Part shown: piece by piece, positions 510 through 3,654 of the stretch
How the letters are laid out: every line of letters starts with the position of its first letter
How positions within the stretch are numbered: the first letter of the stretch is position 1
Notes under the pieces: model-generated
Database searches by the model: none
Told to the model about the DNA's origin: nothing
The model's input: the letters and a program-made list of their open reading frames with translations, nothing else
Made by a program: the position numbers and the translations under genes
Assembly (NCBI GenBank): GCA_002399565.1
Contig: DHDW01000006.1
Coordinates: 4,079 to 12,909, forward strand
Length of the DNA stretch: 8,831 nucleotides
DNA from: Bacteroidales bacterium UBA4866
GTDB taxonomy: Bacteria; Bacteroidota; Bacteroidia; Bacteroidales; P3
Direction: 5' to 3'

Positions 510-2060
510 TTATCTGTTTTTAATTGTTATAAAAGGAATCATTATTTCTTCCATAGAGATGCCTCCGTGTTGGAAGGTGTTCATATAATATTGTACGTAT
601 TGGTTATAGTTATTTGGATAGGCAAAGAAGTCGTTGGAACGAGTGAATATGTAAGGTGAGGTTATGGCAAGTTTTGGTAGGAATATTTGTGTGCAATCTT
701 TCACTTCAAGCACTTCTTTAGGGTTATAGTCAAGTAGTCTTCCAACTTTGTAACGCAGATTGGTTGAAACACCTTTGTCCCCTTTTACTTTCACAGGTCT
801 GTCAACCCTTACAGAACCATGATCTGTTGTGATTATAATATTAACTTTCTTGTCGCTCAAATACTTCAAAACATCCATAAGTGCTGAATGGCTAAACCAA
901 GTTTGAGTAACAGAACGATAGGCTTTTTCATCCTCAGCGAGTTCTCTCACCAAGTCATTTTCCGTTCTTGCATGAGACAACATATCAATGAAATTGTAAA
1001 CAATAACATTCAAATCATTATTGAGCATGTTTGGAAGAATATCTATCATTCTTTTCCCATATTGAACATTCAATACTTTATGATAGGTTGTTTTGAGGTT
1101 AAATCCAAAACGCTTCAGGTTTTCTTGCAAGAGTTCGTGCTCATTTTGATTTTTGTTTCCTTCCTTGTCTTCATTTACCCATAGAGAAGGATATTTCTTT
1201 TCAATCTCTGCTGGCATAAGTCCTGCAAACATTGAATTTCTTGCATATTGAGTTGTTGTTGGAATAATGCTAAAATAAATATCTTCATTATCTACCCTAT
1301 AATATTCTTCAACCATTGTTTGAATAGCTTTCCATTGATCAAAACGGAAGTTGTCAATAACAATTAAGAAAGTAGGAGTTTTATTTTCCTTAAGCAAGGG
1401 GAATAGTTTTTCTTTCAATACAGTGTGAGAAAGGAGGGGCTTGTCTTCTTGTTGGTTTTTCAGCCAACTTTCATAGTTCTTTTCGTAGAAACGGCAAAAC
1501 AAAATATTTGCTTCATCTTTTTGTTGGCGAAGGATTTCAAAAATACTTTCGTCTTGAGAAGTGGCAAGTTCCAATTCCCAAAAAATTAATTTCTTGTATA
1601 TTTCAGTCCATTGCTTAGAGTCCAATCTATCCATTAGACGCATGGATATTTCTCTAAATTGCTGTTGATAATTGAGTGTTGAGGTTTCACTTACTAATTT
1701 TTTTGCTTCAAGATGTTTCTTTAGAGCAAGAAGAATTTGGTTAGGATTAACAGGCTTTATTAAGTAATCAGATATTTTAGAGCCAATGGCTTGTTCCATT
1801 ATGTGCTCTTCCTCACTTTTTGTTATCATTATAATAGGGAGGGAAGGATACTTGTCTTTAATAAGCATTAGAGTATCTAATCCAGAAAGTCCTGGCATAT
1901 TCTCATCTAAAAAAACAATATCAACGATGTTTTGTTCCAAGAGTTCCAATGCTTCTTGTCCATCAGTAGAAGGTATTACTTCGTAGCCTTTTGTTGCCAA
2001 GAAAAGCATATGAGGTTTTAAAAGGTCAATCTCATCGTCAACCCAAAGAATATTAATCAT
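510..2060 (-). CDS. porX: PorX: response regulator fused to PglZ/alkaline phosphatase-type domain
   Basis: 516 residues in two parts. Residues 1-118 are a CheY-like receiver with the acidic pair Asp8-Asp9, phospho-acceptor Asp52 (in FLDENMPG), Thr80 and Lys102, all intact. After a mostly helical linker (about 120-225), residues 228-516 form a PglZ domain of the alkaline phosphatase superfamily. The visible candidate metal ligands are Asp236 (VIDNFRFDQW), the Thr268-270 run (PTTTQYARNSMFAG), Asp359 and His363 (NFIDMLSHAR), Asp413-His414 (TTDHG) and His498 (FQHGG). This architecture is PorX. In Porphyromonas and Flavobacterium PorX acts with the sensor PorY to control type IX secretion genes, and its PglZ domain is a phosphodiesterase acting on oligonucleotides. 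PorY and the sigma factor SigP are not in this window. The ATG at 2060 is the only sensible start, because the receiver's first beta strand begins at residue 2. It is upstream of and touching tsaE, an arrangement I recall as common in Bacteroidota. Confidence 0.95.
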   Translation of the reverse strand: MINILWVDDEIDLLKPHMLFLATKGYEVIPSTDGQEALELLEQNIVDIVFLDENMPGLSGLDTLMLIKDKYPSLPIIMITKSEEEHIMEQAIGSKISDYLIKPVNPNQILLALKKHLEAKKLVSETSTLNYQQQFREISMRLMDRLDSKQWTEIYKKLIFWELELATSQDESIFEILRQQKDEANILFCRFYEKNYESWLKNQQEDKPLLSHTVLKEKLFPLLKENKTPTFLIVIDNFRFDQWKAIQTMVEEYYRVDNEDIYFSIIPTTTQYARNSMFAGLMPAEIEKKYPSLWVNEDKEGNKNQNEHELLQENLKRFGFNLKTTYHKVLNVQYGKRMIDILPNMLNNDLNVIVYNFIDMLSHARTENDLVRELAEDEKAYRSVTQTWFSHSALMDVLKYLSDKKVNIIITTDHGSVRVDRPVKVKGDKGVSTNLRYKVGRLLDYNPKEVLEVKDCTQIFLPKLAITSPYIFTRSNDFFAYPNNYNQYVQYYMNTFQHGGISMEEIMIPFITIKNR

Positions 2061-2152: not shown

Positions 2153-2383
2153 TTATAAATCGGTGCAGTCAAGATTATATTCCGTACTACTGCTACTTAG
2201 TTCAGGAATATCATTTTGAGTAATGCTGCTGCAATTTCCTCCCCAATCGTAAACAGGATATTCATTTGAATTGGCAGATGAAGTTGATTTTTCTTGATTT
2301 GCTGTGCAAACACAGTCATTTTGAGTGCAAGAAACTAATGAAATGCAGAAAAGAACTGCTGCTAAAAAGAATACTTTTTTCAT
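2153..2383 (-). CDS. Small Cys-rich lipoprotein, paralogue of the 3397-3654 gene
   Basis: A 76-residue protein I cannot name. The N-terminus is a type II signal peptide: MKK, a hydrophobic core, and lipobox LVSC with lipidated Cys19. The mature part is about 58 residues, rich in Ser and Asn, with four more cysteines at 24, 26, 51 and 73. It aligns with the other small lipoprotein of this cluster: DCxC just after the lipid anchor, then PVYDWGGNCSSITQND against DVLEFDGDCADITWSD, then a C-terminal LxC. Its ATG lies 2 nt after the DoxX-thioredoxin stop (TAATTATG), so the two genes are probably co-translated. Location should be the periplasmic face of a membrane or the cell surface. The conserved cysteines next to a predicted thiol-redox protein suggest disulfides or metal binding, but that is inference. 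Confidence 0.85.
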   Translation of the reverse strand: MKKVFFLAAVLFCISLVSCTQNDCVCTANQEKSTSSANSNEYPVYDWGGNCSSITQNDIPELSSSSTEYNLDCTDL

Positions 2384-2385
2384 AA

Positions 2386-3324
2386 TTATTTATTGTTTTT
2401 GTTTTTTAAAAAGTCGACAATGAATTCTTCATCAATTGTAGTTAACTTATAAAGTTTCACAACATTTCCATTTTCCAATAAAAAAATTACTGGCATAGTG
2501 CCATGTGTTGTGTTTAGAAACGAAATTACATCAATAAAAGTATATTGTAAGGGTTTTGTATTGGATTCATTATAAAATTGAGTTAAAGGTTTTTCTTTAC
2601 CTCCAAAAACTTCAATAAAATCATTCCTATCCAAATTATGCCTATCAATAATAATATCAATTTTCTTTGCAGCTCTCTTACAATATTTGCAGCTTGTGCT
2701 GTACCAACACACAACTTTTCTTCCTTTATCAATATCTAAGGCTTGCAAATTGTCATAACCTTTAACTTTTTCAAATACTTCAGGTCGAATGTCAACAGAA
2801 TGTTTATAGATTTTAGATTGAATAAAATCAGGAGGTTTAATTGTGAATGCAGTTCCAACTATTAGAAGTGAAGAAATAATAATTATTAGTTTTGCATATT
2901 TGGTCTTCCACCATTTAGCCCATTTTAAGGTTAGAGCTAAAATAATAAGGATAATGTTTTTAATTATTGTTTCTATATCTGAAAGTTGAATTTTATCTCC
3001 AAAACAAAAACAGTTTTCATCGCTAACGTCGAATAATAGAGGCTTTATTAGTAAATATAATGTAAAGCCGATTAAAGTTGAAAAGGTAAGTATCTTGGAT
3101 AGCTTTGGATAAATTCCCACAACAAGCATTATCCCAATTATAGCTTCAAAAGATATTAATAATCTTGATAAGAAAGTAGTAATTACCCAAGGGAATAATT
3201 TATGGTCAAAAAAGAATAAATCAACTGCTTCAATAGACCAATATTTTAAACCCGCAGAAAGGATAAAAACTAAGCCAATAATAATTCGGCATATTGTCCC
3301 AATCAATTTTTTATTTATTCTCAT
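2386..3324 (-). CDS. DoxX/MauE-like membrane protein with C-terminal thioredoxin-like domain
   Basis: 312 residues from the ATG at 3324; an in-frame TTG two codons earlier (3330) is a less likely start. The N-terminal half has about five hydrophobic segments (roughly residues 7-28, 43-70, 76-97, 120-136, 146-163). ENCFCFGDK at about 103-111 (Cys105, Cys107), between the third and fourth, resembles the Cys-Phe-Gly signature of MauE/DoxX redox-associated membrane proteins. From about 178 on there is a thioredoxin-like domain with CxxC at Cys212-Cys215 (SCKYC) and a likely cis-proline at Pro278 (GTMPVIFLL). MauE is needed for disulfide formation in methylamine dehydrogenase. By analogy this protein probably passes electrons between the membrane and periplasmic thiols, the thioredoxin end facing out. 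It is flanked by two Cys-rich lipoproteins that may be its clients. It could belong to the Bacteroidota DoxX family typified by BT_3928, though the gene context differs. The direction of electron flow cannot be told from sequence. Confidence 0.8.
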   Translation of the reverse strand: MRINKKLIGTICRIIIGLVFILSAGLKYWSIEAVDLFFFDHKLFPWVITTFLSRLLISFEAIIGIMLVVGIYPKLSKILTFSTLIGFTLYLLIKPLLFDVSDENCFCFGDKIQLSDIETIIKNIILIILALTLKWAKWWKTKYAKLIIIISSLLIVGTAFTIKPPDFIQSKIYKHSVDIRPEVFEKVKGYDNLQALDIDKGRKVVCWYSTSCKYCKRAAKKIDIIIDRHNLDRNDFIEVFGGKEKPLTQFYNESNTKPLQYTFIDVISFLNTTHGTMPVIFLLENGNVVKLYKLTTIDEEFIVDFLKNKNNK

Positions 3325-3345
3325 ATTCAATTTTAATTAATAATA

Positions 3346-3378
3346 AAAGGGAATACTACAATATGTAATATTCCCTTT
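3346..3378 (-). terminator. Hairpin between lipoprotein and DoxX genes, possible leaky terminator
   Basis: AAAGGGAATA (3346-3355) and TATTCCCTTT (3369-3378) are perfect 10-bp complements. After one C-A mismatch the stem gains three more pairs (3357-3359 with 3365-3367), closing on a 5-nt loop. Read on the minus strand it starts 18 nt after the lipoprotein stop and is followed by TTTTATTATT, so it has the form of an intrinsic terminator or 3' stabiliser. The DoxX start is only 21 nt beyond it and no promoter was found between, so partial read-through is the simplest model. That would give more of the first lipoprotein than of the two downstream genes. Confidence 0.65.
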
Positions 3379-3396
3379 ACTTGCGAAAAATTGTTT

Positions 3397-3654
3397 TTAT
3401 TTTTCAACACATTTAAGTTTGTTTCCTTCCATGATGACTTCAGTCTTGTAAATTCCAGAGTAATCTGACCATGTAATGTCGGCACAATCTCCGTCAAATT
3501 CTAAAACATCTAAATTACCTTCTACCTCTGATGCTCTCATAACAACTGTACCATCACCTTCGTTAACAATATCGCAAGCACAATCTTTAGCAGAATCGCA
3601 AGCTGCAAATGAAAAAGCAGCAGCAATTCCTAATACAAATAAAACTTTTTTCAT
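3397..3654 (-). CDS. Small acidic Cys-rich lipoprotein, first gene of the cluster
   Basis: An 85-residue protein of unknown function. A type II signal peptide ends in a lipobox at FAAC, giving lipidated Cys19. The mature part is acidic, with further cysteines at 25, 27, 57 and 82. The order DCxC, then [WF]xG[ND]Cxx-IT-xxD, then LxC is shared with the lipoprotein at 2153-2383, so the two are paralogues or members of one small family. It has the best promoter match in the window (3727-3756), giving a leader of about 65 nt. A strong hairpin follows the stop. It is predicted to be membrane-anchored outside the cytoplasm. No catalytic motif is visible. A role as substrate, partner or metal carrier for the neighbouring DoxX-thioredoxin protein is a guess from gene order and cysteines. 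Confidence 0.85.
   Translation of the reverse strand: MKKVLFVLGIAAAFSFAACDSAKDCACDIVNEGDGTVVMRASEVEGNLDVLEFDGDCADITWSDYSGIYKTEVIMEGNKLKCVEK

Follow-up and report, generated by a model that had tools for sequence, protein, structure and literature searches.

A MauE-thioredoxin membrane protein and its co-encoded five-cysteine lipoproteins, a candidate dedicated thiol-oxidation system of Bacteroidales

In the DsbB-DsbA and VKOR-Trx systems, a membrane cysteine pair feeds a periplasmic thioredoxin-fold domain. MauD is thioredoxin-like, and the DoxX/MauE superfamily is, to our knowledge, mostly of unknown function. In the methylamine utilisation of Paracoccus, MauE has been speculated to form the disulfides of a single client, the beta subunit of methylamine dehydrogenase (recounted in PMC7794033); a MauE protein serving the disulfides of a client has thus already been proposed. 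That paper also deals with Streptomyces clusters that are RiPP candidates and encode MauE or MauD; families there that hold MauE homologues also have predicted precursor peptides. New here are a MauE domain fused to a predicted catalytic thioredoxin domain and a co-encoded family of candidate lipoprotein clients. As the first-pass annotation of this DNA had supposed, no named system of such composition was found in a literature search of open-licence PMC papers, a result that is not proof.

The window (the whole 8,831-nucleotide stretch of DNA that was analysed) lies on a 42-kb contig of a 2.11-Mb assembly of 54 contigs that is 84% complete. As shown in Table 1, the lipoprotein / DoxX-thioredoxin / lipoprotein cluster that had been noticed at 2153..3654 was confirmed there, all three genes lying on the minus strand. 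They are transcribed in the order LpA, hairpin, MauE-Trx, LpB, with 2 bp between the MauE-Trx stop and the LpB start. The surroundings are ordinary: porX and tsaE downstream of the locus; sufB, a gene for a family 9 glycosyltransferase, mazG and an MBL-fold gene upstream and divergent, with an OMP gene beyond them. PorX, a T9SS response regulator (780 bits, cut-off 300), is encoded directly downstream of the module at window 510-2060. A hairpin like that of the window follows the first lipoprotein gene at 22 of 72 loci, against 1.4 expected from shuffles. With it, LpA would outnumber the MauE-Trx enzyme, an excess that would fit a client and its catalyst.

Table 1. Features of the MauE-Trx module in window coordinates.
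Feature	Position	Strand	Remarks
LpA, first lipoprotein gene, 85 aa	3397..3654	-	Cys 19 (lipobox), 25, 27, 57, 82
Terminator-like hairpin, LpA/MauE-Trx gap	3346..3378	-	15 bp stem, T-rich tail
MauE-Trx membrane protein, 312 aa	2386..3324	-	five predicted TM helices and a predicted periplasmic thioredoxin-fold domain
MauE domain, residues 6-135	2920..3309	-	Pfam PF07291, E 5.8e-18
CxC pair: CFC of NCFCFG loop, Cys105 and Cys107	3004..3012	-	predicted periplasmic side
Thioredoxin-fold domain, residues 176-312	2389..2799	-	AF2 model matches ResA, CcmG, 2ls5
CKYC active site, Cys212 and Cys215	2680..2691	-	invariant in alignment
LpB, second lipoprotein gene, 76 aa	2153..2383	-	Cys 19 (lipobox), 24, 26, 51, 73

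The best start of the MauE-Trx gene is the ATG at 3324, where most homologues also begin. Its product was matched by Pfam MauE at 65.9 bits (gathering cut-off 27), and no Pfam thioredoxin family was matched, only MauE and DoxX being reported at E up to 1. The thioredoxin-fold assignment comes from the predicted structure (pLDDT 91.2), on which the protein combines a thioredoxin fold with CxxC as in the ResA/TlpA/CcmG group. The earlier description of a DoxX/MauE-like domain fused to a CxxC thioredoxin therefore stands, by Pfam for the one half and by the predicted fold for the other. The four catalytic cysteines (CxC and CxxC) are invariant in 30/30 aligned sequences with a mean column identity of 31%; invariant in the same alignment is Pro278 of the thioredoxin-fold domain, which we take to be the cis-Pro position. 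All 112 full-length MauE-Trx loci carry both CxC[FML]G and CxxC. Both cysteine pairs are predicted to lie outside, on the periplasmic side, by hydropathy and a positive-inside reading. Identity with DsbB or VKOR was rejected, as no Pfam PF02600 or PF07884 match was found in the protein. Membership of the BT_3928 family (NF045576) was likewise rejected: the window protein reached 63 bits over residues 10-157 against a cut-off of 250 over 358 positions. A distant MauE-Trx-like relative (23% identity) occurs in a Lentisphaeria MAG (L045).

LpA and LpB are predicted lipoproteins that share 29% identity. Their common cysteine layout (lipidated Cys19, then CxC, C and C), already pointed out in the first-pass annotation, was confirmed; the extra Cys13 of LpB sits inside the signal peptide. 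LpA-type (A9) and LpB-type (A8) profiles, built from sequences sorted into two types by reading, align across the entire mature region (hhalign probability 98.3%, E 2.5e-14), and on this profile alignment LpA and LpB belong to one family. Five cysteines are kept in 30/30 homologues from two lipoprotein searches, LpB itself not counted: in each of 7 close homologues of LpA and in all 23 further homologues of LpB obtained via profile A8. Of the 168 distinct lipoproteins selected by the pattern, 152 have exactly five cysteines from the first lipobox-like Cys onward, leaving an even number of four free thiols; CxC in these is fixed by the selection pattern itself. The remaining 16 have an extra Cys within the signal peptide (12) or the mature part (4), by reading. 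A lipidated Cys cannot form a disulfide, so that the four thiols left would be enough for two disulfides. The layout was also found in 149 of 153 small neighbours at 89 MauE-Trx loci that had been selected on the lipobox with no condition on later cysteines, and the poor conservation of cysteines that would have spoken against a dedicated partnership was not seen; none of 10 lipobox-only ORFs in 524 kb of control sequence had it.

The mature parts are very divergent, and profile A4 missed genus g2 and most g3 copies found by the pattern scan. No Pfam family was assigned to any of 21 A7 rows, and no NCBIfam match of the mature part to any of 56 A4 rows at E 1e-3; the lipoprotein family carries no name in our Pfam and NCBIfam scans. 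The signal peptide and lipobox of LpA and LpB resemble those of the PG1828 family (NF050142), but membership was rejected, since the match covers residues 1-24 only (23.4 and 22.1 bits, cut-off 50). One lipoprotein-profile match with three internal stop codons (G080:C9:287471-287632) is probably a relic.

Genomic linkage was assessed at 112 full-length MauE-Trx loci after de-duplication at 95% identity, comprising an 82-locus set (with 40 loci of the window's family added to it) and 30 loci from other families of the order. Same-strand five-Cys lipoproteins, 1 to 3 per locus, were present at 85/112 loci: 71/82 in the first set compared with 14/30 in the second. This pairing suggests that MauE-Trx is likely to be a dedicated machine that would form the disulfides of the lipoproteins. 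The 27 loci with no same-strand lipoprotein are L020, L026 (contig ends), L027, L029, L031, L032, L033, L035, L044, L112 and L113 of the 82-locus set and L170, L173, L176, L178-L182, L184, L185, L187, L189-L191, L198 and L200 of the order set; two of them, L170 and L185, carry an opposite-strand copy, and two have less than 400 bp upstream.

A first scan of 50 distinct MauE-Trx genes gave 77 pattern matches within 1.3 kb, at 39 loci and all on the same strand; the more distant flanks (258,718 bp) gave none, and 20-fold shuffling of every near region produced 1 match overall. Hand-picked background stretches gave no match in the window's genome (155,696 bp sampled) and one in other genomes (200,000 bp sampled), a hydrophobic ORF unlike a lipoprotein that was counted spurious. 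Loci of the long MauE paralogues termed BT_3928-type served as a control (20 loci in 20 genomes, 168,084 bp; 19 after de-duplication): five-Cys lipoproteins were found at 0/19, and the paralogues keep CxC and miss CxxC in 19/19. In the genus of the window, LpB-type copies lie downstream of MauE-Trx; other genera have them directly upstream of it. None of the other window genes is present in the examined flanks of 96/99 further loci, drawn from the family's other genera, the order and the phylum. The linkage is therefore not inherited synteny alone.

Other lipoproteins and arrangements were also observed. Orphan five-Cys lipoproteins away from MauE-Trx occur at L146 (G010:C10) and among L148-L165, with four in tandem in G010. 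A MauE-Trx subfamily of CGCFG type adjoins different small Cys-rich lipoproteins, with as many as 9 Cys counted from the lipobox, at 6/8 loci (L202:1646-1912, L203:2925-3191, L204:1648-1911, L206:1535-1750, L207:2910-3125, L208:2932-3156); those scanned score below all Pfam and NCBIfam cut-offs. Outside the order, CGCFG-type relatives mostly with C(D/E)HC sites (L251-L264) have no five-Cys lipoprotein in the examined flanks. In three genomes of one genus, MauE-Trx is followed by a predicted lipoprotein (L189:2509-3639, L190:2516-3646, L191:335-1465), the L189 copy of which has DUF362 and 4Fe-4S domains.

Co-occurrence was examined in an order sample of 295 genomes, full-length MauE-Trx being called at E at most 1e-60. 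MauE-Trx was found in 36 genomes and lipoproteins in 25 (21 by the order-level profile A7, five by A4), all 25 within the 36 (Fisher 4.8e-28, relatedness and profile origin uncorrected). The profiles were built from lipoproteins beside MauE-Trx and are biased towards such genomes. Seven lipoprotein-positive genomes (G101, G103, G180, G240, G251, G283 and G316) contributed no profile rows, and all seven are MauE-Trx-positive (P 1.4e-9); in 6 of them the lipoprotein is on another contig or far from MauE-Trx, contig breaks being possible in these fragmented assemblies. The other 11 of the 36 MauE-Trx genomes gave no A7 or A4 match, among them G299, which is positive by the pattern scan (L166). 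Of 31 lipoprotein matches in the order genomes, 17 adjoin MauE-Trx (one on the opposite strand) and 14 are orphans. In 101 genomes of the window's family, 70 of 110 profile matches lie beside a MauE-Trx gene and 40 away from it, six of the latter in G036 and G053, whose MauE-Trx match is either cut off or located at the start of a contig. Of the 43 A4-positive genomes of the family, 42 also gave a MauE-Trx match with E no worse than 1e-27; the exception, G043, has three such lipoproteins and no full MauE-Trx (best E 3.1e-15). In a phylum sample of 296 genomes, A7 lipoproteins were found only in G408 and G436, the best two MauE-Trx matches after the window's own genome, with the lipoprotein adjacent in G436. 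A MauE-Trx-like match occurs in 14 further genomes, none with such a lipoprotein, and in lipoprotein-free G438 it scores near that of G408 (2.8e-52 vs 3.7e-53). The earlier suggestion that the lipoproteins are dedicated partners of the membrane protein is thus supported by linkage and co-occurrence, and lipoproteins mostly lacking a MauE-Trx neighbour, the finding named beforehand as contrary to it, were not encountered.

We consider the chances about even that LpA, LpB and MauE-Trx form one dedicated envelope thiol-oxidation system. Through its CKYC site, the predicted thioredoxin domain would turn the four cysteines of each lipoprotein that carry no lipid into two disulfides; it would itself be re-oxidised by the CxC pair of MauE, from which the electrons would pass, probably, to membrane quinone. 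We infer from the sequences that the lipoproteins are the substrates and the direction oxidising. A DsbD_TM match was present in 11/11 genomes of the window's genus (open frames of 674-722 aa), and DsbB and VKOR were found in 0/11 by Pfam searches (PF02600, PF07884) that were positive in 6 and 3 of 14 control genomes, respectively. With the reducing arm filled and the known oxidising arms empty, oxidation by MauE-Trx is favoured, and in this genus the oxidising role most likely falls to MauE-Trx.

Several observations count against oxidation and fit a reductive or isomerising system, in which MauE-Trx would keep the lipoprotein cysteines reduced or reshuffle them and the lipoproteins would pass thiol electrons to other envelope proteins. 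The predicted thioredoxin domain is closest to ResA/CcmG/StoA-type folds, and ResA and CcmG act as reductants in their own systems. At one locus (L178:2490-3404), the MauE-Trx gene adjoins a lipoprotein with SelR (MsrB) and PMSR (MsrA) domains, enzymes that need a reductant. CxC pairs are also suited to fast thiol exchange. However, a DsbD_TM protein is already present in all 11 genomes of the genus that were searched, and no route for cytoplasmic electrons is visible, as both MauE-Trx cysteine pairs are predicted to lie outside. We therefore regard a reductive or isomerising role as unlikely.

A role in metal handling, in which the lipoproteins would bind or deliver a metal through four Cys ligands and MauE-Trx would keep the ligands in the right redox state, appears quite improbable. 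The CxC and two further cysteines would suit it, as would the parallel with TlpA, which acts on a copper chaperone, ScoI, and is represented in the structure matches by a PDB complex; but mature LpA and LpB contain no His, no metal transporter was found by Pfam among the ten window proteins, and the later Cys gaps of the 152 five-Cys lipoproteins vary widely (15-39 and 10-34 residues). The reading that the genes are simply carried along together near porX in this lineage, with no shared function, is strongly disfavoured and very improbable: porX adjoins the locus at 22/40 loci of one MauE-Trx locus set, yet lipoproteins persist at many loci that lack the other window genes, the order-level co-occurrence holds for genes lying apart, and the BT_3928-type paralogues have no lipoprotein neighbours.

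The oxidative reading bears on the wider question of how Bacteroidales lacking DsbB and VKOR would make envelope disulfides. In one gene cluster, the module brings together a definite enzyme, with its two invariant pairs of cysteines, and the probable clients of that enzyme, which makes that question testable. For the DoxX/MauE superfamily it adds a set of probable clients from outside methylamine metabolism, and it outlines the lipoprotein family described above. More tentatively, and with some doubt, MauE-Trx may represent a third type of membrane disulfide generator in bacteria, next to DsbB and VKOR, in Bacteroidota lacking both, with subfamilies specialised by co-encoded, fast-diverging Cys-rich lipoprotein clients (five-Cys ones here, unrelated ones beside the CGCFG type).

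Among described systems, the BT_3928 family shares with MauE-Trx an N-terminal MauE domain with CxC; the long BT_3928-type paralogues differ from the window protein in having neither CxxC nor lipoproteins. The candidate RiPP clusters of Streptomyces, compared by description and not by sequence, are actinobacterial, and no lipoproteins are described for them in the part of PMC7794033 consulted. The likeness to MauE/MauD lies in the MauE domain, which has MauD as its partner there and a thioredoxin domain here; the differences are that both parts reside in one protein here, that the presumed clients are small lipoproteins, and that no methylamine dehydrogenase gene was found by Pfam among the ten window proteins. 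In its working scheme MauE-Trx would presumably resemble DsbB-DsbA and VKOR-Trx, whereas its candidate clients, unlike those of the DsbB and VKOR systems, are encoded together with the enzyme.
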